Virus record (IMG/VR): IMGVR_UViG_3300032462_000089
Span: 1-23,739 of that record
DNA length: 23,739 bases
Reading direction: 5' to 3' (one strand)
Source of the DNA: a virus
Below, piece after piece: positions 3,599-19,158 of this stretch. Numbering within the stretch: position 1 is the first letter of the stretch; the number at the start of each line of letters is the position of its first letter. A program made the translations under genes and the position numbers. The notes under the pieces were generated by a model. The model was not told the DNA's origin. It worked only from the letters and a program-made list of their open reading frames with translations, and searched no databases.

Positions 3599-5818
3599 TT
3601 ACGGTTTTGTTACTGGGAATAAAGCTATTCTGTAACCTAATGCAACAGTTGCGTTGTATACATTATAAGCAAATCCAATGTACATTCTTTGAGGGTCTAT
3701 GTTTACAATAAATCCACCTGCAACGTCTCCTCCTGTAATTGACCATGTTCCGACTGTTTTTGTAGTTACAACACTTGATGATGCAAGAATATCTGCCCAT
3801 TTTCTGATTGTAAATGATTGATTACCACTCTGATAAGCAGAATATAATACACCTTGTCTATCTACCATAACGGATGTATTTGAATTATTAAGTGTACTTG
3901 TAGGTATTGTCGATGTACTCTCAGCAGTCATTGTTGTTCCTGAAATTGACCATCTTCGTAATGTTGTAGCACTGCTAGCAGAGTTTACATAAATAGAAAC
4001 ACCATCAGTCCAAGCGTAGTTGTATGCAGTAGAAGCCACTGTCGGCACTGTCATTACTTGTTCTCCTGTTAAATCTGATGCAAGAAAACGTGAGCAGATA
4101 ATGTTTGTTGAATCATTTGCAAACACATAAATAAAAGTACCGATTTCAACTATTGAACCGAAGTCAGTATTTGGCACTGCAATAGTAGGGTTGATACTAT
4201 GTGTTTGGAAATATTGTCCTGTTAGAGCATCACGTTCGTATCTAAAGAAGTTTGTTGTACCAACTAAGATATATATAACACTTCCACTTATGTTAGAGCC
4301 AAAACATTGTCTTTCTAAAAAGTCTGATGACAACGCTAACTCTTGGAAAAAAGCAGGCACAGGCATTTCAGCTACATCATAAAATGTATCTTCTATTTTA
4401 CCACTTGTATTAGTTTTAATAACCTGACTTACTGTACCTTGTATTGTTGAGAAATATAAATCAACAGTTGCAACAGTAACCCAACCGTCTGTTGTGTTGT
4501 TGAATTTTACTCCACCACTTGCATATCCACCTGCTGTGTTTATTCCAATATTAGGGCGGTTAGAAGTATCTGCTGTTGATGTTTGAATTACAATCCAGTA
4601 AAGACTTCCTGCAATGACACTTGAGAATTGTGATGAAAATAAAGATTCAAAAACACCAACACCTGTTTGTATCCATTTTGTGTTGCTGATAGTAACTGTC
4701 GCAAGAGATGTTCCTGAAGGATTACCTGCTGTGTCTGCTTGTAGTGAAATTGTAACTGTTCCTGTAAATGAACCTGTGTCTGCTGATTTGAAAAGATTAA
4801 CTCCTCGTATCTTTGTGAAAGTAGGAATAAATGACTGTGCTAGTCTGTTGCGAAGTCCTGTTGTGTTTGCTTCTCCTACTGTACTTGAACTGTCTTGTGT
4901 TAGTTGAGATTGTCCTGTAAGTCCTGTTGATGTGTTATCTTCAGAAACATATCTGTTAGTAGTAGAAGGAACTCCTGTTGAACCTGCCATAGCATCTTTT
5001 TCTTTTTGTGTAGGCAGTGTTTTTAATAGTGGATTGAAAAGTAGTATTGTTGCACTTAAAGCCCAACCAATAAATACAGAGTTTGTCCCTGCTGTTGTTG
5101 TTATTGCACCTGCTGTGTTTGATAGATAGTATTTAGAGCCTGCTGTAAGCCCTGAGAAGCCTGATACGGGTCCTGAAATAGCTACTTGGATAGTTTGTCC
5201 TGAAGCAGTAGCAAGTGTCTTACAGATACCGATTTGAAGTTGGTCAAAAGTTGCGGTTAGGTCTGCATCTGCTTTATACCAAAGTGCGTCTGACTCTTTG
5301 AAATAGACAATATCATTTATTGCGATAGCTTCGCCTGATGTTTGAGCAGAGATAGTTTGTTGGTCAAAAGTTACAGCACCTCCGTTTACTACACCAAGAA
5401 CATAAGCAACTGTTGCAAGTTGGTTTCCTGTGACTGAAACTGGTCCGTCATATCCAAGTGGGCTAGTGCTATTAAGAGCTGTTGCACCAGAAACAAGGTC
5501 ATTAATGAATTTCAAGTGTCCAAAGTTTGTAATTTTAACAGAAGCACCGATACGATGTTTTCGTACAACACCAACAGTTTCAACTCCTTGTCGTGATACT
5601 GACTTTATATTTGTTATTGCTGTTCCTACTAAATCACACGAGATGTGTTCTTTTGAAGAGTTACCATTATCAGTTGTTAAAAGATAACGCCCTGAAGGTA
5701 AGGCAATACCATCATCATCTGTTGCAGACGATAAAGTGGCAGTAGTTCCGCCTACTGGTAAATCTGTTGATAATGAAGTTGTAAAATCTGCGATTATTTT
5801 TCCTAGTAGTGTTGCCAT
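3599..5818 (-). CDS. Tail fibre / receptor-binding protein
   Basis: 739 residues, rich in Thr/Ser/Gly/Val and low in charge, typical of beta-structured fibres. The N-terminal part (1-110, MATLLGKIIADFTTSL...) looks like a virion-attachment region. Residues about 120-270 resemble repeated phage fibre modules (YKADADLTATFDQLQIGI; TNSVFIGWALSATILLF). About 300-480 looks like a jelly-roll carbohydrate-binding type domain (QSFIPTFTKIRGVNLF). The last 250 residues contain repeated beta-strand/turn units that could form a propeller-like receptor-binding head. It probably recognises the host surface. Its own extended -10 promoter lies just upstream, and the 28-nt region before ATG contains a TTGGGGA motif. 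Fibre assignment is from composition and position; domain folds need structure prediction. Confidence 0.75.
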   Translation of the reverse strand: MATLLGKIIADFTTSLSTDLPVGGTTATLSSATDDDGIALPSGRYLLTTDNGNSSKEHISCDLVGTAITNIKSVSRQGVETVGVVRKHRIGASVKITNFGHLKFINDLVSGATALNSTSPLGYDGPVSVTGNQLATVAYVLGVVNGGAVTFDQQTISAQTSGEAIAINDIVYFKESDALWYKADADLTATFDQLQIGICKTLATASGQTIQVAISGPVSGFSGLTAGSKYYLSNTAGAITTTAGTNSVFIGWALSATILLFNPLLKTLPTQKEKDAMAGSTGVPSTTNRYVSEDNTSTGLTGQSQLTQDSSSTVGEANTTGLRNRLAQSFIPTFTKIRGVNLFKSADTGSFTGTVTISLQADTAGNPSGTSLATVTISNTKWIQTGVGVFESLFSSQFSSVIAGSLYWIVIQTSTADTSNRPNIGINTAGGYASGGVKFNNTTDGWVTVATVDLYFSTIQGTVSQVIKTNTSGKIEDTFYDVAEMPVPAFFQELALSSDFLERQCFGSNISGSVIYILVGTTNFFRYERDALTGQYFQTHSINPTIAVPNTDFGSIVEIGTFIYVFANDSTNIICSRFLASDLTGEQVMTVPTVASTAYNYAWTDGVSIYVNSASSATTLRRWSISGTTMTAESTSTIPTSTLNNSNTSVMVDRQGVLYSAYQSGNQSFTIRKWADILASSSVVTTKTVGTWSITGGDVAGGFIVNIDPQRMYIGFAYNVYNATVALGYRIALFPVTKP

Positions 5819-5829
5819 ATTGTTTTATA

Positions 5830-5836
5830 TCCCCAA
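5830..5836 (-). promoter_or_regulatory. TTGGGGA leader motif of the fibre gene
   Basis: TTGGGGA lies 11 nt before the fibre ATG at 5818 and downstream of the TGGTATAAT promoter. The same heptamer is found in the leaders of capsid, scaffold and portal. It does not match the usual GGAGG ribosome-binding site, although an atypical Shine-Dalgarno role cannot be excluded at this spacing. Confidence 0.5.
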
Positions 5837-5846
5837 GTTACTTATA

Positions 5847-5855
5847 ATTATACCA
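5847..5855 (-). promoter_or_regulatory. Extended -10 promoter for the fibre gene
   Basis: TGGTATAAT is a perfect extended -10 element in the short gap between the upstream tail gene (stop at 5863) and the fibre ATG (5818). Expected initiation is about 7 nt downstream, giving a leader of roughly 20-25 nt. No good -35 box is seen, as is common for extended -10 promoters. It would allow separate fibre expression within the late operon. Confidence 0.65.
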
Positions 5856-8470: not shown

Positions 8471-9679
8471 TTATACCACCGCTAGTTTCACGTTTAGGAA
8501 TTTCTTTTGACCATCCGCAAATGTTTTGAGACCTGCGAGATATGAACTAAAGACGTTGTTTCCACGGCGGTCTGCTGTCTGTCGAATATCGACTTCTGTC
8601 ATACTTTGTACTACCAAGTCAATAGCTCCTTTCTTACCATAATAGCAGTTTAAGAAGTTAAGTGACCAAACGTCGGTAGCGTCTGTAAGTGTTTCAGAAA
8701 CAAGTACACGTCCACCTCCAGTTTTAACAATAGACAAAGTGTTTGCTGTGTCGTTGTTTGTTGCAACAACTCCTGAAAGCAATTTTCGGTTTGCTGCTGA
8801 TACTTCAAAGTATCCAGTATTTACGTCTTTTCCTGTAAGTGAAGCGTTGAATGCGTTTGCAAGAATTGCACGAGTTGCATCTGCATCTGCTCCAATATCA
8901 AATTCTCCTGCTACTGATGGTACTGCACGAGCTGTCCATACAACGCCGTTGTAAGTGATAGTATCTGCTGCTGTTACGTTTGTCGCTAGTGCCAATACTG
9001 ATGATGAAGTAAGGTTGCTTGAGATAAACATTTCTGCTGAACCAACATCTCCAACGTATCCGTTCTTGAATGCTGAACCTGCGATGTCAATGTTCTTTGA
9101 GATGATAAACTCTGAAATGTTTGCTGCTGCGTAGTAATCTACAACGAGAGCCATGTTTGACATGATGTCAATATCATTTGCGTTTCCTAGTTTAGCACCC
9201 ATTCGAGTTGTCATTTGTGGAACTGTAGTTGATGAAAGTGTGATTGGAGTTCCTGATGAAACACCAGTTGTAAGGTCACCTGTATCGAATGTTGCTCCTG
9301 CGTTCAATACTTCTGCGAAACATCGTCCGTCAAGGTCTGCTGCTAACTTTCGAGCGTTGTGGCTACCTGCGAATTCCATAGCTTTTAGAGGTCCTGTTTG
9401 TTTAACTTCTCCGTCTGAAAGGTGGAATGCCATTTCTTTCTCAAGGTTGATAGTCAAAGCTTCTGTTGTATCTGTGATAGAGTCAATAACTGACGCTGCA
9501 CCACGAGTTACTGAACGTACTTCTACTCCTGAAAGGTCCATAGCAACACGAGTAACTGAACCTCCGTATGTAAGCATAGGCTCCAAACGCATGTTCATTA
9601 TTTTCTTTGCTACTAATTTTTTATCGAAAATCTCTTGATAAGTATTATCGAATGCTACTTTATAATCTGTCAATGCCAT
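8471..9679 (-). CDS. Major capsid protein (HK97 fold, P22 coat-like) with inserted domain
   Basis: 402 residues. It forms the icosahedral shell. The N-terminal helix (MALTDYKVAFDNTYQEIFDKK), the E-loop-like region about 30-100, and the helix SHNARKLAADLDGRCFAEVLNAG (106-128) fit HK97-type coat proteins of the P22-like branch. Residues about 230-338 (TITYNGVVWTARAVPS, DIGADADATRAILANAFNA) look like a separate domain inserted before the final strands and helix (CYYGKKGAIDLVVQSMTEVDIR), comparable in position to insertion domains of P22-like coats. The gene follows scaffold directly, the usual order. The leader holds GATTGGGGA at 9702-9710. Codons are G/C-richer than in the early region, as expected for a highly expressed gene. 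Confidence 0.85.
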   Translation of the reverse strand: MALTDYKVAFDNTYQEIFDKKLVAKKIMNMRLEPMLTYGGSVTRVAMDLSGVEVRSVTRGAASVIDSITDTTEALTINLEKEMAFHLSDGEVKQTGPLKAMEFAGSHNARKLAADLDGRCFAEVLNAGATFDTGDLTTGVSSGTPITLSSTTVPQMTTRMGAKLGNANDIDIMSNMALVVDYYAAANISEFIISKNIDIAGSAFKNGYVGDVGSAEMFISSNLTSSSVLALATNVTAADTITYNGVVWTARAVPSVAGEFDIGADADATRAILANAFNASLTGKDVNTGYFEVSAANRKLLSGVVATNNDTANTLSIVKTGGGRVLVSETLTDATDVWSLNFLNCYYGKKGAIDLVVQSMTEVDIRQTADRRGNNVFSSYLAGLKTFADGQKKFLNVKLAVV

Positions 9680-9701
9680 ATAATTTGTAAATTTAATCTA
9701 A

Positions 9702-9710
9702 TCCCCAATC
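9702..9710 (-). promoter_or_regulatory. GATTGGGGA leader motif of the capsid gene
   Basis: GATTGGGGA lies 22 nt upstream of the capsid ATG (9679), in the 38-bp scaffold-capsid gap. It is identical to the motif before the portal gene. No -10 box precedes it here, so it is probably read as part of a longer transcript. Confidence 0.5.
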
Positions 9711-9717
9711 ATAGAAA

Positions 9718-10440
9718 TTAGAAACCTCTTGTTAGCATGTTCGCATTGTATTGAGCTTTCTTCTTTGGACTTTTCATAATCTCATTAAAGTAGGCAATAT
9801 CTTTTTCTGCTCGTGCTAGGTCTAAGGGTTCTGGGTCGTTTCCTCCCGCTGGTTGTCTTGTTTCTATAGTACGCTTTCCAGTCAAAGCATTACCATATGT
9901 TTCTTCAAGTAATTGAGAAACTGTTTTGTTTTTGTTTTCTGGGATTTTAGCAAGTGATTTGATAACATTTGCATTTGCAATAGACTTGAACTCTGGTCCT
10001 CTGTCTAATGCTTGTGCCATTTGTTTATCAAACGCTGTTTCAAATCTTTCTGCTCTTTCTTTTGCAGACAATTTGTCTGAATACTTTTGGTCAAGTTTTG
10101 CAGTAGCTGAATCGACAAGGCGTTGTATAAACGCTGGGTCGGTATCAAATTCTTCTGCGATACTATTAACGTCTACATCAATATCACTAAGAGATTGACC
10201 ATGACTAATAGATTCTTGTAGTGCCTTTAATTCTTTTTCGACTGCCTTTCGTGCTTTCTTTTCAGCAACAAAAGCGTTTTGAGAAACAACTCGCTGTTCA
10301 GGTTCTTCTTCTCCTTCAAGCTCGGCTATTGTTTGTTCGTCTTCTTGAGTATTTTCCTCAATAGTTTCCGCAGTTTCTTCTGCTACTCCTTCTGAAACAA
10401 TATCCTCTGTTTCTTGAGCATCATTTTGGAAATCTTCCAT
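9718..10440 (-). CDS. Scaffolding protein
   Basis: 240 residues, strongly acidic at the N-terminus (Glu/Gln/Thr-rich, about 1-60), then a charged helical middle (AEKKARKAVEKELKALQES) and a basic C-terminus (SPKKKAQYNANMLTRGF). This charge pattern, with a helical C-terminal coat-binding end, is classic for phage scaffolds. The gene sits between portal and capsid, the usual place. A TTG at 10494 would extend the frame by 18 residues and ATG 10452 by 4; ATG 10440 has the AATATT-ATG context common in this genome, so I chose it, but 10452 is equally possible. It would direct capsid assembly and then leave the head. Confidence 0.75.
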   Translation of the reverse strand: MEDFQNDAQETEDIVSEGVAEETAETIEENTQEDEQTIAELEGEEEPEQRVVSQNAFVAEKKARKAVEKELKALQESISHGQSLSDIDVDVNSIAEEFDTDPAFIQRLVDSATAKLDQKYSDKLSAKERAERFETAFDKQMAQALDRGPEFKSIANANVIKSLAKIPENKNKTVSQLLEETYGNALTGKRTIETRQPAGGNDPEPLDLARAEKDIAYFNEIMKSPKKKAQYNANMLTRGF

Positions 10441-10457
10441 AATATTTAACATTTTTA

Positions 10458-10472
10458 CAAAGTTGCACTTTG
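10458..10472 (-). other. Hairpin in scaffold leader
   Basis: CAAAGT GCA ACTTTG is a perfect 6-bp stem, 3-nt loop, about 17 nt before the scaffold ATG at 10440. Together with a second hairpin at 10508-10521 it makes the 5' leader of the scaffold mRNA unusually structured. Confidence 0.4.
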
Positions 10473-10507
10473 GAGTTTTTTGTCCGTCTCTCAAACGTAT
10501 AGATTTA

Positions 10508-10521
10508 GAGTATCTCTACTC
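10508..10521 (-). other. Hairpin next to TTGGGGA in scaffold leader
   Basis: GAGTA GAGA TACTC forms a perfect 5-bp stem with a 4-nt loop. Its first two bases overlap the end of the TTGGGGA motif (10520-10526), so folding and any binding to the motif could influence each other. Confidence 0.4.
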
Positions 10522-10526
10522 CCCAA
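10520..10526 (-). promoter_or_regulatory. TTGGGGA motif at the predicted 5' end of scaffold mRNA
   Basis: TTGGGGA begins 7 nt after TATAAT, so the transcript should start at or within a base of the motif. It lies 79 nt before the scaffold ATG, too far for a ribosome-binding site, which argues that the motif has another function. Confidence 0.5.
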
Positions 10527-10533
10527 TATAATA

Positions 10534-10542
10534 ATTATACCA
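10534..10542 (-). promoter_or_regulatory. Extended -10 promoter for scaffold/capsid
   Basis: TGGTATAAT, identical to the fibre, portal and small-terminase promoters. It lies downstream of the structured element at 10559-10635 and would drive scaffold and probably capsid, two proteins needed in large amounts. Confidence 0.65.
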
Positions 10543-10558
10543 CATTACGCATCTTTTT

Positions 10559-10635
10559 AGAGTAATGTAGCTTGTTCTAGTATCTCCGACCGATTGGGGG
10601 TTAGTCTTCAATACCAGAAAGAGCTACACTACTCT
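10559..10635 (-). ncRNA. Putative structured RNA element with C-rich loop
   Basis: 77 nt in the 3' region after the gene ending at 10640. Minus-strand arms AGAGTAGTGTAGCT (10635-10622) and AGCTACATTACTCT (10572-10559) pair over 14 bp with one G-U. An inner stem CTGGTAT/ATACTAG (10617-10611 with 10583-10577) pairs over 7 bp with one G-U. A 4-bp stem GACT/GGTC then closes the 11-nt loop AACCCCCAATC. Both imperfect pairs are G-U only if the minus strand is the RNA; on plus they would be A-C mismatches, so transcription is probably minus. There is no T-run after the stem, so it is not an ordinary terminator. The loop is complementary to GATTGGGG in late gene leaders. Function unknown. Confidence 0.5.
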
Positions 10636-10639
10636 TTGG

Positions 10640-10936
10640 TTATTCTGCTTCGTTAAGTTCTTTCTCTAACAGGTCTTGATAATATTCCATGTTGCCTTGT
10701 GAGCTTGTGATGACTTTGATAAGGTCTATGTTTACTCTTACTTTAGCCCCTAAAGCGATGAACTCTTGCTGTGTAAGTGTGTTGTGATTGTCTGCAATAT
10801 TTTCAATAGCACTTATAACATCTTTAATCATACCTTTCACAATCGTCTTACCACCTTCGGAATTGCGTATCTCTGCAATAGATTTCTGTAATCCTAAATC
10901 TTCTTGCAACATTTCAACCTTTTCTTTATCAATCAT
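10640..10936 (-). CDS. Hypothetical helical protein between portal and scaffold
   Basis: 98 residues from ATG 10936, chosen because AAGGAG sits 9 nt upstream, one of the few clear Shine-Dalgarno sites here; a longer frame from 10984 would overlap the previous gene by 47 bp. Sequence MIDKEKVEMLQEDLGLQ... is charged, all-helical, with Asn/Leu/Ile-rich heptads and no Cys. It starts 1 bp after the upstream stop, so the two are coupled. It could be a head-assembly accessory factor given its place, but no family is recognised. The structured element at 10559-10635 follows directly. Confidence 0.65.
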   Translation of the reverse strand: MIDKEKVEMLQEDLGLQKSIAEIRNSEGGKTIVKGMIKDVISAIENIADNHNTLTQQEFIALGAKVRVNIDLIKVITSSQGNMEYYQDLLEKELNEAE

Positions 10937-11383: not shown

Positions 11384-13336
11384 TTAGAATTGTGGAGGTA
11401 CTTCCCCATTAGTATTTATAACGTCTTTCACTTCTTCCATTTGTGTTTGCCCACCTTGTTGCTCTTGCTGTGGTCCTTCAACTTGTTGTTTAATCTGATT
11501 CATTTGTTGTTTGAACAGTAAATCATTTGCTTGCTTGACCATGTTTCTCATAATAATTTCGTCTAACCCTACAAGATATTTTGAGAGGTCTTGTAGCTGG
11601 TCACCTGTAATATGTTCTTCATTGTCTTGCATATAATCAACAAAGCGTTGTTTGTATGCTGTTGTAGCTGATTGATTAGGTGCAATCTTCTCTCCGTCAA
11701 GGATTGCTTCAATATCTCTTTCTGCTTCTGACATAAGCTCTGCACTTCCGTACTCTGAAACATCAAGTAATTGTTTGATTGTATCTTCTTCAAATCCTGC
11801 AATAGTTGCTTGTAGCTCGTATGCTTTTTGCTGGTTCTGAATAGGATTGACTGCTTGGCTGTTTAGGAACGCAATCTTTGTTCTTTTTTCTACTTCTGAT
11901 AATGTTGACTCTGCATTTGATGACTCGACCATTGTTCCAAACTTATCATCTTTTCTGAATATATCTCGTCTTGAAACATCAAACATCTCTACGCCATTTG
12001 GTCCAAGAATATCAATCGCTGTTTTCTTTACCAAGTGTTCTCGTACTCCATGTTCATATAGTTTTGCAAACCTTTTATATCCGAATGAGTATGACTTGTT
12101 AAGGAATCCGAATCTATCGGCAGAGTTAGCTTGATTTCCTTCATAGATTCCTACTTTGTCTTCGTCTGACATACCTTTAGCACCTGCTGTAACTCCTGAC
12201 GCTTTCTCCTGAATAGAATCAAGTAGTGTAAATACTTCGATAGGTGTATTGATTGATGGTGTCATCAGTGTCTGTACTGCTTGATTTAGGTCTATGTCTT
12301 TGTTTACTTTGATATAGCCATCTCGTCTGTATTTTAATTCTGCAAGGTTTTTTACTGCTGATACGTTTACAAGTTTAGTAGGCTTAATTATCTGTTCTGC
12401 GTTATCAAGCATTTGATTGATTGAGGTAGCTTGAGCCATAAAGATTTCTCGAACGTAATCACAGAATGATGGTGTCCAAAACTCTGTAAGGTCTGGGAAC
12501 GCCGCCCAAGACCAGAAAGGATATAGGTCTGATTCAAATATATCTTTCAAAGGTTCTACTCGTACAGCTGTTGCTCCGTCTTCTTGCAATAGTAGATAGA
12601 ATCGTTCTCCTTCGTAAGTTGTAAACCACTCCCAGAACTTATACTTATTTACATCTCCAATCTCTTTGTTTTGTTTCCATACGTTAGTGTCGTATGTTCT
12701 GTTTTGTTTGTTTACTTGTTCTTGGCTCATTTCATCACTGTTTCCAGCTCCTTCAAGTAAGATATTAGTTTCAGTCTTTAGGTATATCTTATCTTTGATA
12801 CCTTGTTTTAATTCATGGCGTGATTTTACTACTCCATAACTTCCTAAATAAAATGCTGATTCTAAATCAAGTCCACCTGCTGAAGGGTCAATAAGAAAAT
12901 CATAAACGTCAATAGGTTCTAGGTTTGACTTATATACTCCGTCTGGTGATTCTGCTGAATAAGAATAAATAGAACGACCATAAATAATCGCTTGTTTCTT
13001 TCCTGCAATATCTTTAATATCCCAGCTGTTGAGTTCTTGGTCTGATGCACGTAATGCGTTCAGATATTTTACTCTTTTTAGTTGTGACTCTTTACGTTTA
13101 ATAAACTTAAAAATAAGAGGGTTATCAATCTTTGAAAGCAAAGTATGTACGAATGATGACATTTGTCCCAAATCTACGTTAGCTCTTGCTGACGATTGAT
13201 TGATTTTGCGTGAATAATACAAGTCTTCGTTGATTTTCCAGTTAGAAACCTTACCTTGCTTGTATTCTCGAGCAAATTCTATTTCTTTTAGTGCTTGCCT
13301 GATGATTAGTTGTCGTTTTTCAAAAGATATTACCAT
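11384..13336 (-). CDS. Portal protein (head-to-tail connector)
   Basis: 650 residues, normal for podovirus/P22-like portals. The N-terminus (RQALKEIEFAREYKQGKVSNWKINEDLYY) and the block about 120-165 (GRSIYSYSAESPDGVYKSNLEPIDVYDFLIDPSA) match the typical portal pattern in which a vertex protein describes a '...V.P.dfl.DP.A' core. A central region about 280-400 (SINQMLDNAEQIIKPTKLVN; TPSINTPIEVFTLLDSIQEKASGVTAGAKG) fits the wing/crown part. The C-terminus is Gln-rich (QQMNQIKQQVEGPQQEQQGG), as in the barrel tails of many portals. It makes the dodecameric ring through which DNA enters and leaves the head. It lies right after the large terminase, with its own promoter and a hairpin leader. Confidence 0.85.
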   Translation of the reverse strand: MVISFEKRQLIIRQALKEIEFAREYKQGKVSNWKINEDLYYSRKINQSSARANVDLGQMSSFVHTLLSKIDNPLIFKFIKRKESQLKRVKYLNALRASDQELNSWDIKDIAGKKQAIIYGRSIYSYSAESPDGVYKSNLEPIDVYDFLIDPSAGGLDLESAFYLGSYGVVKSRHELKQGIKDKIYLKTETNILLEGAGNSDEMSQEQVNKQNRTYDTNVWKQNKEIGDVNKYKFWEWFTTYEGERFYLLLQEDGATAVRVEPLKDIFESDLYPFWSWAAFPDLTEFWTPSFCDYVREIFMAQATSINQMLDNAEQIIKPTKLVNVSAVKNLAELKYRRDGYIKVNKDIDLNQAVQTLMTPSINTPIEVFTLLDSIQEKASGVTAGAKGMSDEDKVGIYEGNQANSADRFGFLNKSYSFGYKRFAKLYEHGVREHLVKKTAIDILGPNGVEMFDVSRRDIFRKDDKFGTMVESSNAESTLSEVEKRTKIAFLNSQAVNPIQNQQKAYELQATIAGFEEDTIKQLLDVSEYGSAELMSEAERDIEAILDGEKIAPNQSATTAYKQRFVDYMQDNEEHITGDQLQDLSKYLVGLDEIIMRNMVKQANDLLFKQQMNQIKQQVEGPQQEQQGGQTQMEEVKDVINTNGEVPPQF

Positions 13337-13340
13337 TTAT

Positions 13341-13356
13341 GTGATTCCCCAATCAC
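13341..13356 (-). promoter_or_regulatory. Hairpin leader of portal gene with GGGG loop
   Basis: GTGATT GGGG AATCAC is a perfect 6-bp stem presenting GGGG as the loop, ending 4 nt before the portal ATG (13336). It contains TTGGGGA (13346-13352). The placement would cover the ribosome-binding region, so opening or binding of the loop could control portal translation. Confidence 0.55.
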
Positions 13357-13376: not shown

Positions 13377-13385
13377 ATTATACCA
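13377..13385 (-). promoter_or_regulatory. Extended -10 promoter for portal
   Basis: TGGTATAAT in the 53-bp gap between the terminase stop (13390) and portal ATG (13336). Predicted leader about 35 nt, containing the hairpin at 13341-13356. Confidence 0.65.
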
Positions 13386-14610: not shown

Positions 14611-14902
14611 TTATGATTTCAACTAATACAGATTGTATATCTTTACCATTGCTAGTAATATCAGACTTGCTTTCAGCTTTACCCTCTGCCATCTCCCATA
14701 CTTTAATCTTATCTATTCCTTCAAAAAAGGCTTCTTTCTCATCATCTGTCATATTTGATAAGTATTTCTTAGCATAGTCTTTTAGAGAACTACCTTTTGG
14801 TCTTCCAGCAGGGTTACCTGACTGTCCTTTCTTAAACTGCCAAGGTTGTATTCTTAACGCTCTGCTTTCTGGTTGTTCTTCGCTTGATGTTTCAGTATCC
14901 AT
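14579..14902 (-). CDS. terS: Putative terminase small subunit
   Basis: 107 residues. The basic segment FKKGQSGNPAGRPKGSSLKDY (about 24-44) is the GNPAGRPKG motif of a family often found beside phage large terminases. The following helices (YAKKYLSNMTDDEKEAFFEGIDKIKVWEMAEGK) and the polar tail (ESKSDITSNGKDIQSVLVEI) match the arrangement of such small proteins. It would bind the packaging site and present DNA to TerL. The frame overlaps the terL start. The ATG at 14902 lies only 7 nt after a TATAAT box, so the mRNA is predicted to be leaderless. Function inferred from motif and position. Confidence 0.7.
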   Translation of the reverse strand: MDTETSSEEQPESRALRIQPWQFKKGQSGNPAGRPKGSSLKDYAKKYLSNMTDDEKEAFFEGIDKIKVWEMAEGKAESKSDITSNGKDIQSVLVEIINAKSEEDTNT

Positions 14903-14909
14903 ATATTCT

Positions 14910-14918
14910 ATTATACCA
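14910..14918 (-). promoter_or_regulatory. Extended -10 promoter, leaderless start of terS
   Basis: TGGTATAAT followed by 7 nt (AGAATAT) and then ATG. Normal initiation 6-8 nt after the box places +1 at or beside the A of the start codon. The promoter fits entirely in the 18-bp gap before the terS start and after the methyltransferase stop. Confidence 0.65.
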
Positions 14919-17483: not shown

Positions 17484-17675
17484 TTATTTCTTTGGTTTAA
17501 CTACTGGTTTTGGTAATGGTGCTTCTTTTGGTTCTACGTGTTCTGCTGGAACTGGGTTTGTAAAAAACTCAACTGCTTCTGCGATTACTTTTGCATCTTT
17601 TAATTCAAATGCTCCTGCTTTGTTTGCTAATTGTACTGCTTGAATAAGAATACTTAATGCTTTTTGATTATCCAT
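17484..17675 (-). CDS. Small conserved-type phage protein with Pro/Lys tail
   Basis: 63 residues: two helices (ALSILIQAVQLANKAGAFELKDAKVIAEAVEFF, given here only as its key residues A-S-I-L, N-K-A-G-A-F and A-V-E-F-F) then a Pro/Glu/Lys tail (KPVVKPKK). Small proteins with this A-Q-x-G-A-x-x-L-x-x-A pattern occur in tail and late regions of phages, function unknown. A TATAAT box lies 10 nt upstream of the ATG at 17675, so the leader would be only about 3-4 nt. Confidence 0.55.
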   Translation of the reverse strand: MDNQKALSILIQAVQLANKAGAFELKDAKVIAEAVEFFTNPVPAEHVEPKEAPLPKPVVKPKK

Positions 17676-17685
17676 ATATATATAT

Positions 17686-17694
17686 ATTATACCA
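17686..17694 (-). promoter_or_regulatory. Extended -10 promoter copy 1
   Basis: TGGTATAAT inside a 14-bp sequence (AATAATGGTATAAT) repeated 63 bp upstream. It is followed by an (AT)n run and the ATG of the 63-residue gene. Confidence 0.6.
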
Positions 17695-18042: not shown

Positions 18043-18564
18043 TTATTCTTTATCTGGTAATGGTTTGTTTAGGGAACGTATGTCAATTCCGATTTCCTCT
18101 GCACGATTTCTAAGGTACTGGTTTACTGTTGTTTGAAACGGAGTCATTTTTGCCTCTATACCTTCCATCATCATTGATTCCACTACATTAGCCCTTTCTT
18201 CTGCTACCCCTTCACTTCTCCCTGCTTCATAACCTAAACGAAACGATGAACCTTTTGCGTTTCTACCTTGTTCGTATGCTAGTGCTGTTTCTTTTTCTAT
18301 GAAAGCCCATAGCTTTTTCATATCTAGCGCAGAAATTTCATCGCACAACTGGAATCTTTGATAAGCATCCTCGAACCTTTCTTTTGTTGTACTCTCTAGT
18401 GGCTCATCCTCTCTGGTTTCTAGCTGTATCTTATCTGGATTAAATGTTTCGCCACTAGGGAATCGAACACCATAGCGATGTCTGCCATAGAAGTCATCCA
18501 TCCATGTTGCCTCGTGCCATTCGCCTGTCACTGGGTGTTTTGTTTGTTGTGAAAATGTACTCAT
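18043..18564 (-). CDS. Hypothetical protein with compact N-terminal domain
   Basis: 173 residues. The N-terminus (HPVTGEWHEATWMDDFYG, then HRYGVRFPSGETFNPD) looks like a small beta domain; the middle and C-terminal parts are charged helices (YEQGRNAKGSSFRLGYEAGR; NQYLRNRAEEIGIDIRSL). I recall similar N-termini in uncultured phages but no function. Starts ATG 18564, following the structured gap at 18565-18720. Confidence 0.55.
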   Translation of the reverse strand: MSTFSQQTKHPVTGEWHEATWMDDFYGRHRYGVRFPSGETFNPDKIQLETREDEPLESTTKERFEDAYQRFQLCDEISALDMKKLWAFIEKETALAYEQGRNAKGSSFRLGYEAGRSEGVAEERANVVESMMMEGIEAKMTPFQTTVNQYLRNRAEEIGIDIRSLNKPLPDKE

Positions 18565-18609
18565 AATGTATATCTATTTTAATTTATAATCGACAATTTG
18601 TATCTATGA

Positions 18610-18711
18610 TGGGCTTGTGGGGGCAGATAAGAATTTAACCCTTATCTACTTGAGGTCTTAAGACTGCAGTGCATGAGCCTCATCATCGCTTTCGCTAACC
18701 CCATAAACCCA
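18610..18711. ncRNA. Putative structured non-coding element, branched stem-loop
   Basis: Fills the 156-bp gap between two genes and is richer in G/C than its surroundings. Arms TGGGCTTGTGGGG (18610-18622) and CCCCATAAACCCA (18699-18711) pair at 12 of 13 positions (one wobble included, one mismatch) and enclose several smaller structures: AGATAAG/CTTATCT (18625-18631 with 18641-18647, 9-nt loop), TGAGG/CCTCA (18651-18655 with 18678-18682), the palindromes GTCTTAAGAC and ACTGCAGT, and a GCGAAAGC mini-hairpin on the minus strand. The layout resembles a cloverleaf, but T-loop and anticodon-arm rules are not met, so I do not call a tRNA. It may be a structured RNA, an origin or a recombination site. 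Strand undecided. Confidence 0.45.
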
Positions 18712-18720
18712 CCATATTTC

Positions 18721-19158
18721 TTAATTTAATAACTCCCCAATAAACGTCTTTGTTTCTTCTGACTGGTCGTTGAAGTTGTCTTTGGATAGGTTCCAATTCA
18801 TATCTCTGAAATGAAACATTAAGTTTGACCAATCGTTTCCTACATCTCCACTTTCTGCCTCTGAGTAAGTGATAGGAAGTCCCTCGTGTTTAAGGATTGC
18901 CAACATTACAATTGCTATTGTGATAGGTTTGCCGAGGATTTCAAAGAAACTTGAGTGATGAAAAACAAATCCAATATCTACTGTCCTTCCTTCTCCGTTT
19001 GTAAATAAAACTTGTGTGTTTGATACTACCACACCTTTCCCATTCAATTTATATTGCTCCTTCAAACTTTCACTTACACATATTACCTCACACCCCTCCT
19101 CTAAAGCCATACCGTCTGTCAACTCCTGTATTCGATTGATTGTTTTTTCGTGGTTCAT
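18721..19158 (-). CDS. Hypothetical protein
   Basis: 145 residues (MNHEKTINRIQELTDGMALEEGCEVICVSE...). The N-terminal helix is followed by a beta-rich stretch (CEVICVSESLKEQYKLNGKGVVVSNTQVL; positions about 23-52) and a hydrophobic segment (ILGKPITIAIVMLAILKHEGLP, about 74-95; 22 residues that are probably buried rather than membrane). The C-terminus is acidic. No family known; neighbours are other small early-type genes. One base separates its start from the next upstream stop. Confidence 0.55.
   Translation of the reverse strand: MNHEKTINRIQELTDGMALEEGCEVICVSESLKEQYKLNGKGVVVSNTQVLFTNGEGRTVDIGFVFHHSSFFEILGKPITIAIVMLAILKHEGLPITYSEAESGDVGNDWSNLMFHFRDMNWNLSKDNFNDQSEETKTFIGELLN

Follow-up and report, generated by a model that had tools for sequence, protein, structure and literature searches.

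A hairpin RNA loop that co-varies with sites in head-gene leaders in a family of uncultivated phages

A long hairpin RNA is predicted among the late genes of the phage DNA analyzed here, and its loop is complementary to short sequences in front of several of those genes. The question raised by this locus is whether the matches reflect an RNA that pairs with the leaders, a DNA site read by a protein, or a hairpin of another kind that resembles them by chance. The window (the whole stretch of DNA that was analyzed) is a 23.7-kb virus record whose late genes are all on the minus strand, as are the late genes, TATAAT boxes, hairpins and target sites located by coordinates below. The late-gene set comprises TerL, portal, two small ORFs, a scaffold-position gene, capsid, adaptor and a fibre-position gene. 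The portal gene (11384-13336) matches PF23899 SU10_portal (E 2.1e-13) and the adaptor gene matches PF24175. Support for the major capsid gene (8471-9679) comes from phrog_267 'major head protein', matched by four of 11 aligned relatives (best E 5.6e-12), and from a weak PDB match to a major capsid protein (8e16). AlphaFold gave poor models of both the portal and the capsid protein (pLDDT 45), and a fold search with the capsid was uninformative; the gene identities rest on the PF23899, PF24175 and phrog_267 matches. The scaffold-position gene (9718-10440, 240 aa), located between portal and capsid and kept in relatives, and the fibre-position gene (3599-5818, 739 aa) have no family match; the names "scaffold" and "fibre" denote position only.

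The hairpin RNA element is 77 nt long (10559-10635) and separates the second small ORF from the scaffold-position gene, beginning 4 nt past the stop codon of the 98-aa ORF directly upstream (10640-10936). It is predicted to form 28 bp, divided into an outer stem of 14 bp, a middle stem of 10 bp and a tip of 4 bp, with a minimum free energy of -37.8 kcal/mol (z -5.7) that none of the shuffled sequences equaled. The apical loop AACCCCCAAUC (10592-10602; minus-strand DNA AACCCCCAATC) is the putative recognition sequence, which co-varies with the leaders. No Rfam 15 covariance model matched anywhere in the window up to an E value of 5, and ARAGORN gave no match for the element as a tRNA or tmRNA. 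A second structured RNA was noticed at 18600-18715 (minus strand, z -3.9), between ORFs 18721-19158 and 18043-18564; it has an outer stem of ~17 bp and several branches, is without Rfam match, and was seen only in the near-identical contig L002/L005/L085.

A TATAAT box, the predicted scaffold promoter, is found just downstream of the stem (10534-10539), and in 48 of 50 relatives a TATAAT-like hexamer follows the loop at a distance of 16-68 nt. The predicted portal promoter has its TATAAT at 13377-13382, and transcripts containing the element would probably start from it. Separately, TATAAT boxes 7-12 nt before an ATG at 14902-14915 and 17675-17691 suggest leaderless transcripts for some genes. 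Sitting as it does between two transcription units, the hairpin might merely be a terminator or insulator in front of the scaffold promoter, its complementarity to the leaders being accidental. This is hardly credible, as the stem is followed by AAAAAGAUGCG, without a U-run, no terminator-like site was called (in a scan covering loops of 3-8 nt only), and the permutation tests described below exclude chance.

The earlier note had reported complementarity of 8, 8, 7 and 6 nt between the loop and the capsid, portal, scaffold and fibre leaders, and these lengths proved exact. The capsid leader carries GAUUGGGG (DNA GATTGGGG) at 9703-9710, 23 nt before the AUG (9679), and the same 8-nt match is present in the portal leader at 13347-13354. 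The 5' end of the scaffold transcript has the 7-nt match AUUGGGG (DNA ATTGGGG; 10521-10527), ~80 nt before the scaffold AUG, and the fibre-gene leader has the 6-nt match UUGGGG (DNA TTGGGG; 5831-5836), 12 nt before the AUG (5818), with a TATAAT box as predicted promoter at 5847-5852. We considered the G-run as a Shine-Dalgarno sequence and rejected it, since the distances of the capsid and scaffold sites from their AUGs mean that such a function cannot explain all sites. GATTGGGG occurs three times in the window (expected 0.21), namely in the loop (on the opposite strand) and in the capsid and portal leaders, while TTGGGGA occurs five times (expected 1.58), the fifth copy (18734-18740) being outside any leader. 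Predicted duplex energies for the 11-nt loop were -13.8 kcal/mol with both the capsid and portal leaders, -12.1 with scaffold and -10.6 with fibre, against -9.7 (o147), -6.1, -3.1 and -2.7 kcal/mol with control leaders. In several phages (for example L003:3606, L136:6055 and L190:1069), 7-mers complementary to the loop also occur towards the portal 3' end, upstream of o147; they were not significant in the o147 permutation test.

The GGGG of the portal leader is, as previously described, the loop of a perfect hairpin, GUGAUU-GGGG-AAUCAC, with a 6-bp stem (13341-13356) that ends 4 nt before the AUG (13336). The kissing interaction proposed on this basis fits in part: strict loop-loop contact suits the portal, but the capsid site is partly single-stranded and its local hairpin would have to open. 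In the clade to which the window belongs, the G-run is held by this hairpin, UCUAAUUUCUA-UGAU-UGGGGAUUAGA (9697-9722); it has an RNAfold energy of -10.1 kcal/mol, is also present in L003 and L013, and has many G.U pairs, so that it counts as moderate evidence only. The scaffold leader downstream of the motif (10440-10520, minus strand) is conserved in relatives, with a short hairpin, whose loop is often GNRA-like, followed by CTCCAAAGTGCAACTTTG, and may contain further RNA structure.

To gain comparative evidence, relatives were collected by capsid, TerL and portal searches and by alignments of these, yielding more than 200 loci. In most contigs with this portal/scaffold/capsid module, the scaffold gene is directly preceded by a long hairpin, mostly of 25-35 pairs, whose loop is C-rich; in all, ~60 related phage contigs have a hairpin comparable in place and form. 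The stem sequences are unrelated between clades and the pairing is kept, with compensatory double changes at 15 of 28 pairs in one clade and 15 of 24 in a second. Scanning of the A1 genome collection returned four MAG contigs only. Capsid relatives occurred in two of 380 genomes from the phylum of the Parcubacteria MAG and in one of 398 from the Methylobacter phylum, and neither portal nor capsid had a relative among 50,697 phage records. Among phages beyond this head module (similar TerL, other head genes), 10 hairpins with complements were counted versus seven in the opposite-strand control, which gives no sign of spread beyond the module. Homing-endonuclease-like ORFs and group I intron-like inserts were observed in some contigs (L086:8990-9640, L086:11080-11320 and L089:12120-12890, and also in L149, L161 and L173); they sit beside the target sites, within the scaffold leader or right where the capsid gene begins.

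Our analysis uncovered strong co-variation between the loop and the capsid leader. A fixed rule selected the loops: each came from the strongest CCC-containing hairpin loop structure ahead of the scaffold gene (a few loops were trimmed by eye). Leaders were taken by position. The longest complement in the capsid leader averaged 7.86 nt for a phage's own loop versus 5.25 nt for the loops of other phages (n=50), a difference reached in none of 5,000 permutations, and 39 of the 50 phages had an own-loop complement of at least 7 nt. As C-runs and G-runs match trivially, specificity was tested with only the 4 nt adjoining the runs. In this segment, 155 of 176 capsid positions were Watson-Crick, compared with a permuted mean of 74.9 and a maximum of 97 in 5,000 permutations. 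The match was exact in 35 of 42 capsid leaders, whereas background G-runs elsewhere on the sense strand were preceded by the correct 3 nt in 2.9% of cases. The segment came in 25 different loop/leader combinations, among them AATC/GATT, ATTC/GAAT, ATCC/GGAT, GTTC/GAAC, GCCC/GGGC, GTGC/GCAC, TCTT/AAGA and GATA/TATC; over the longer match, the window has CCCCAATC/GATTGGGG and L003 has CCCCATTC/GAATGGGG.

The permutations treat related phages as exchangeable, and an analysis on the capsid tree corrects for kinship in part only. On that tree, at least 21 loop changes and at least 21 leader changes were needed, and the joint state changed only 23 times, so that most loop and leader changes were shared. 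The earlier note had raised independent change of loop and leader motifs in relatives as the observation that would count against pairing; the result was the opposite, with joint change at least 21 times. Seven of 14 independent pairs with different loops were fully compensated, and some others retain a G.U pair. Within the main set, L110, L128, L134, L181 and L222 do not fit, and the pattern is absent from L118, L141 and L197, which have very short capsid leaders.

A further scan, in which no C-run was demanded, covered loci outside the first set. In L126 and L140, the loop CTCGTTC is matched by GAACGAG in the capsid leader. L133 has AACCTCGTC/GACGAGGTT, and GACGAGG recurs in the hairpin of its portal leader; L113 has CCTGTTC/GAACAGG, with the motif at the portal too. 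In L211, GATGGA is found at the capsid and GATGGAT at the portal. The same loop/leader rule is obeyed by L229 and by the distant L237 (40% portal identity to L136), which has TTCCGTTA/TAACGGAA. That the rule is kept in loops without C-runs shows that the code is not a by-product of G-runs.

The tests supported all four leaders named in the earlier note, the capsid most strongly. Portal leaders co-vary with the loop (0 of 5,000 permutations), more weakly than capsid leaders, with 75 of 112 positions of the specificity segment Watson-Crick versus 42.7 when permuted. Fibre leaders likewise show a weaker signal than the capsid (2 of 5,000), at 38 of 64 positions versus 25.3 permuted (maximum 35). 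For the scaffold, the first 24 nt after the TATAAT gave a mean match of 5.04 with the own loop versus 4.53 with others (2 of 5,000), and the 4-nt specificity test of this leader was not significant (p 0.16). No co-variation was seen in the controls, which were the regions upstream of o147, o234 and o631 and same-sense loops.

The same co-variation might arise if the motif were a double-stranded DNA site of a phage protein, present in the loop in opposite orientation, with loop and leaders following a co-evolving protein. A reverse-complement copy is identical to a protein that binds double-stranded DNA, and three of the four sites have a TATAAT box nearby. We nevertheless consider this very unlikely. 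The capsid site has no TATAAT nearby, and the loop copy caps a long hairpin whose stem covaries. In most relatives the portal leader has a hairpin of 5-8 bp, separated from the AUG by a few nt; the motif forms its tip, and its stem sequence differs from phage to phage. Several portal leaders have GAG for GAA, a change that makes the local stem stronger and leaves a G.U pair with the loop. Positions that are not Watson-Crick are enriched for G.U in both the portal (0.63 versus 0.43; 0 of 3,000) and the fibre leaders (0.62 versus 0.49; 3 of 3,000), which favors RNA pairing over a DNA-binding protein; no such excess was seen in the capsid leaders.

Taken as sequence evidence, these observations make it highly probable that the hairpin RNA regulates phage head genes by pairing, in one direction or the other. 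The element would lie within the untranslated 3' part of the portal transcript unit and present a C-rich loop of ~8-14 nt. G-rich sites in the capsid (8-12 bp), portal, scaffold and fibre 5' leaders would be the partners of this loop. The element would be transcribed and act as an RNA, either in trans or within a read-through transcript, in which the loop could pair with the downstream scaffold motif as a pseudoknot; the action would be on translation or mRNA fate. It can reasonably be inferred that the element coordinates expression of head and tail genes, as had been suggested.

Activation of the head genes by the pairing is our working model, about as likely as not. In this model, the loop would bind the free specificity nucleotides first and then the G-run, opening the leader hairpin and freeing the start region, so that translation of the head genes would be activated and coordinated, most strongly for the capsid. 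In the capsid leaders, the G-run is locally paired in 32 of 43, the hairpin ends 0-11 nt before the AUG in 29, and the specificity nucleotides before the G-run are mostly unpaired. Loop duplexes are predicted at -8 to -29 kcal/mol, usually stronger than the local folds, although these figures leave out loop constraints. A hairpin before the AUG that is opened by the loop has the geometry of translational activation, and the best match being with the most abundant protein (the capsid, of which most copies are needed) also fits activation. In the window's own capsid leader the hairpin lies upstream and the last 17 nt before the AUG are free; opening is not obviously needed there, which leaves room for repression or an effect on mRNA fate.

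With the same pairing, the element could instead repress, by blocking ribosomes or recruiting an RNase to the head-gene messages for timing or feedback. This possibility is a doubtful one. The window's capsid site is outside any start-blocking hairpin, the element would regulate its own transcript through the portal leader, and the known phage base-pairing RNAs c4 and sar repress (PMC12197685). Yet the strongest complementarity belongs to the most-needed protein, and the 29 capsid leaders with a hairpin close to the AUG would be closed even without the element. A role mainly in mRNA fate appears still less probable. Here the stem would be an RNase III-type processing site, to which stems of 25-35 bp are suited in general, and the loop-leader pairing would protect or mark 5' ends; the scaffold and fibre sites are within ~15 nt of predicted transcript 5' ends, but the capsid leader has no nearby TATAAT and is internal to the scaffold-capsid unit.

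The capsid:portal:scaffold ratio is usually credited to promoter strength, gene order and translation signals. A widespread uncultivated phage family appears to set part of this ratio with one hairpin that recognizes several head-gene leaders. A bolder form of the activation model, an address code in which one loop switches on many virion genes in trans, is tentative and on balance improbable. If true, graded opening of the capsid, portal, scaffold and fibre leaders would set assembly stoichiometry, and diversification between relatives would prevent cross-regulation among co-infecting phages. The relatives supply natural sets of apparently orthogonal loop-leader pairs, and the loop and leader exchanges that recur in nature provide a ready compensatory-mutation series, making pairing specificity directly testable.

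In anti-antisense activators of the DsrA-rpoS type, pairing with one arm of a leader hairpin frees the start region, as it would in the activation model. Among the phages analyzed, 29 of 43 capsid leaders and most portal leaders have a cis hairpin at the start region, and the window's capsid leader is without one. These activators differ in being bacterial sRNAs, many of them Hfq-dependent, with longer pairing, whereas the element has a short loop and its activation is only inferred. Plasmid copy control by CopA/CopT relies on recognition through short G/C-rich loops that diverge between relatives, as do the loops described here. CopA, however, is encoded in cis opposite its target, so that complementarity is automatic, whereas the element and its targets occupy separate places on one strand, and their match has to be maintained by selection.

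We found no such head-gene RNA system in the open-access papers that were searched, and the word "capsid" is absent from a 2025 review of phage-derived sRNAs (PMC12197685). Among the phage-encoded base-pairing RNAs, which the element resembles in that respect, PreS of lambda targets the host dnaN and VpdS of a vibriophage competes for Hfq (PMC12197685), roles in a phage-host RNA contest that set them apart. We file the element as a base-pairing riboregulator outside every named family. The RNA that comes closest to it in its presumed mode of action is the c4 antisense RNA of P1/P7, a structured RNA whose loops are thought to be complementary to the leader at the ant ribosome-binding region of the same genome (PMC12197685). 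In both, the loop sequence is the complement of a leader encoded by that phage itself. While c4 represses a single antirepressor operon (ant/icd) in the control of lysogeny, the element faces several leaders, those of the capsid, portal, scaffold-position and fibre-position genes, with no link to lysogeny.
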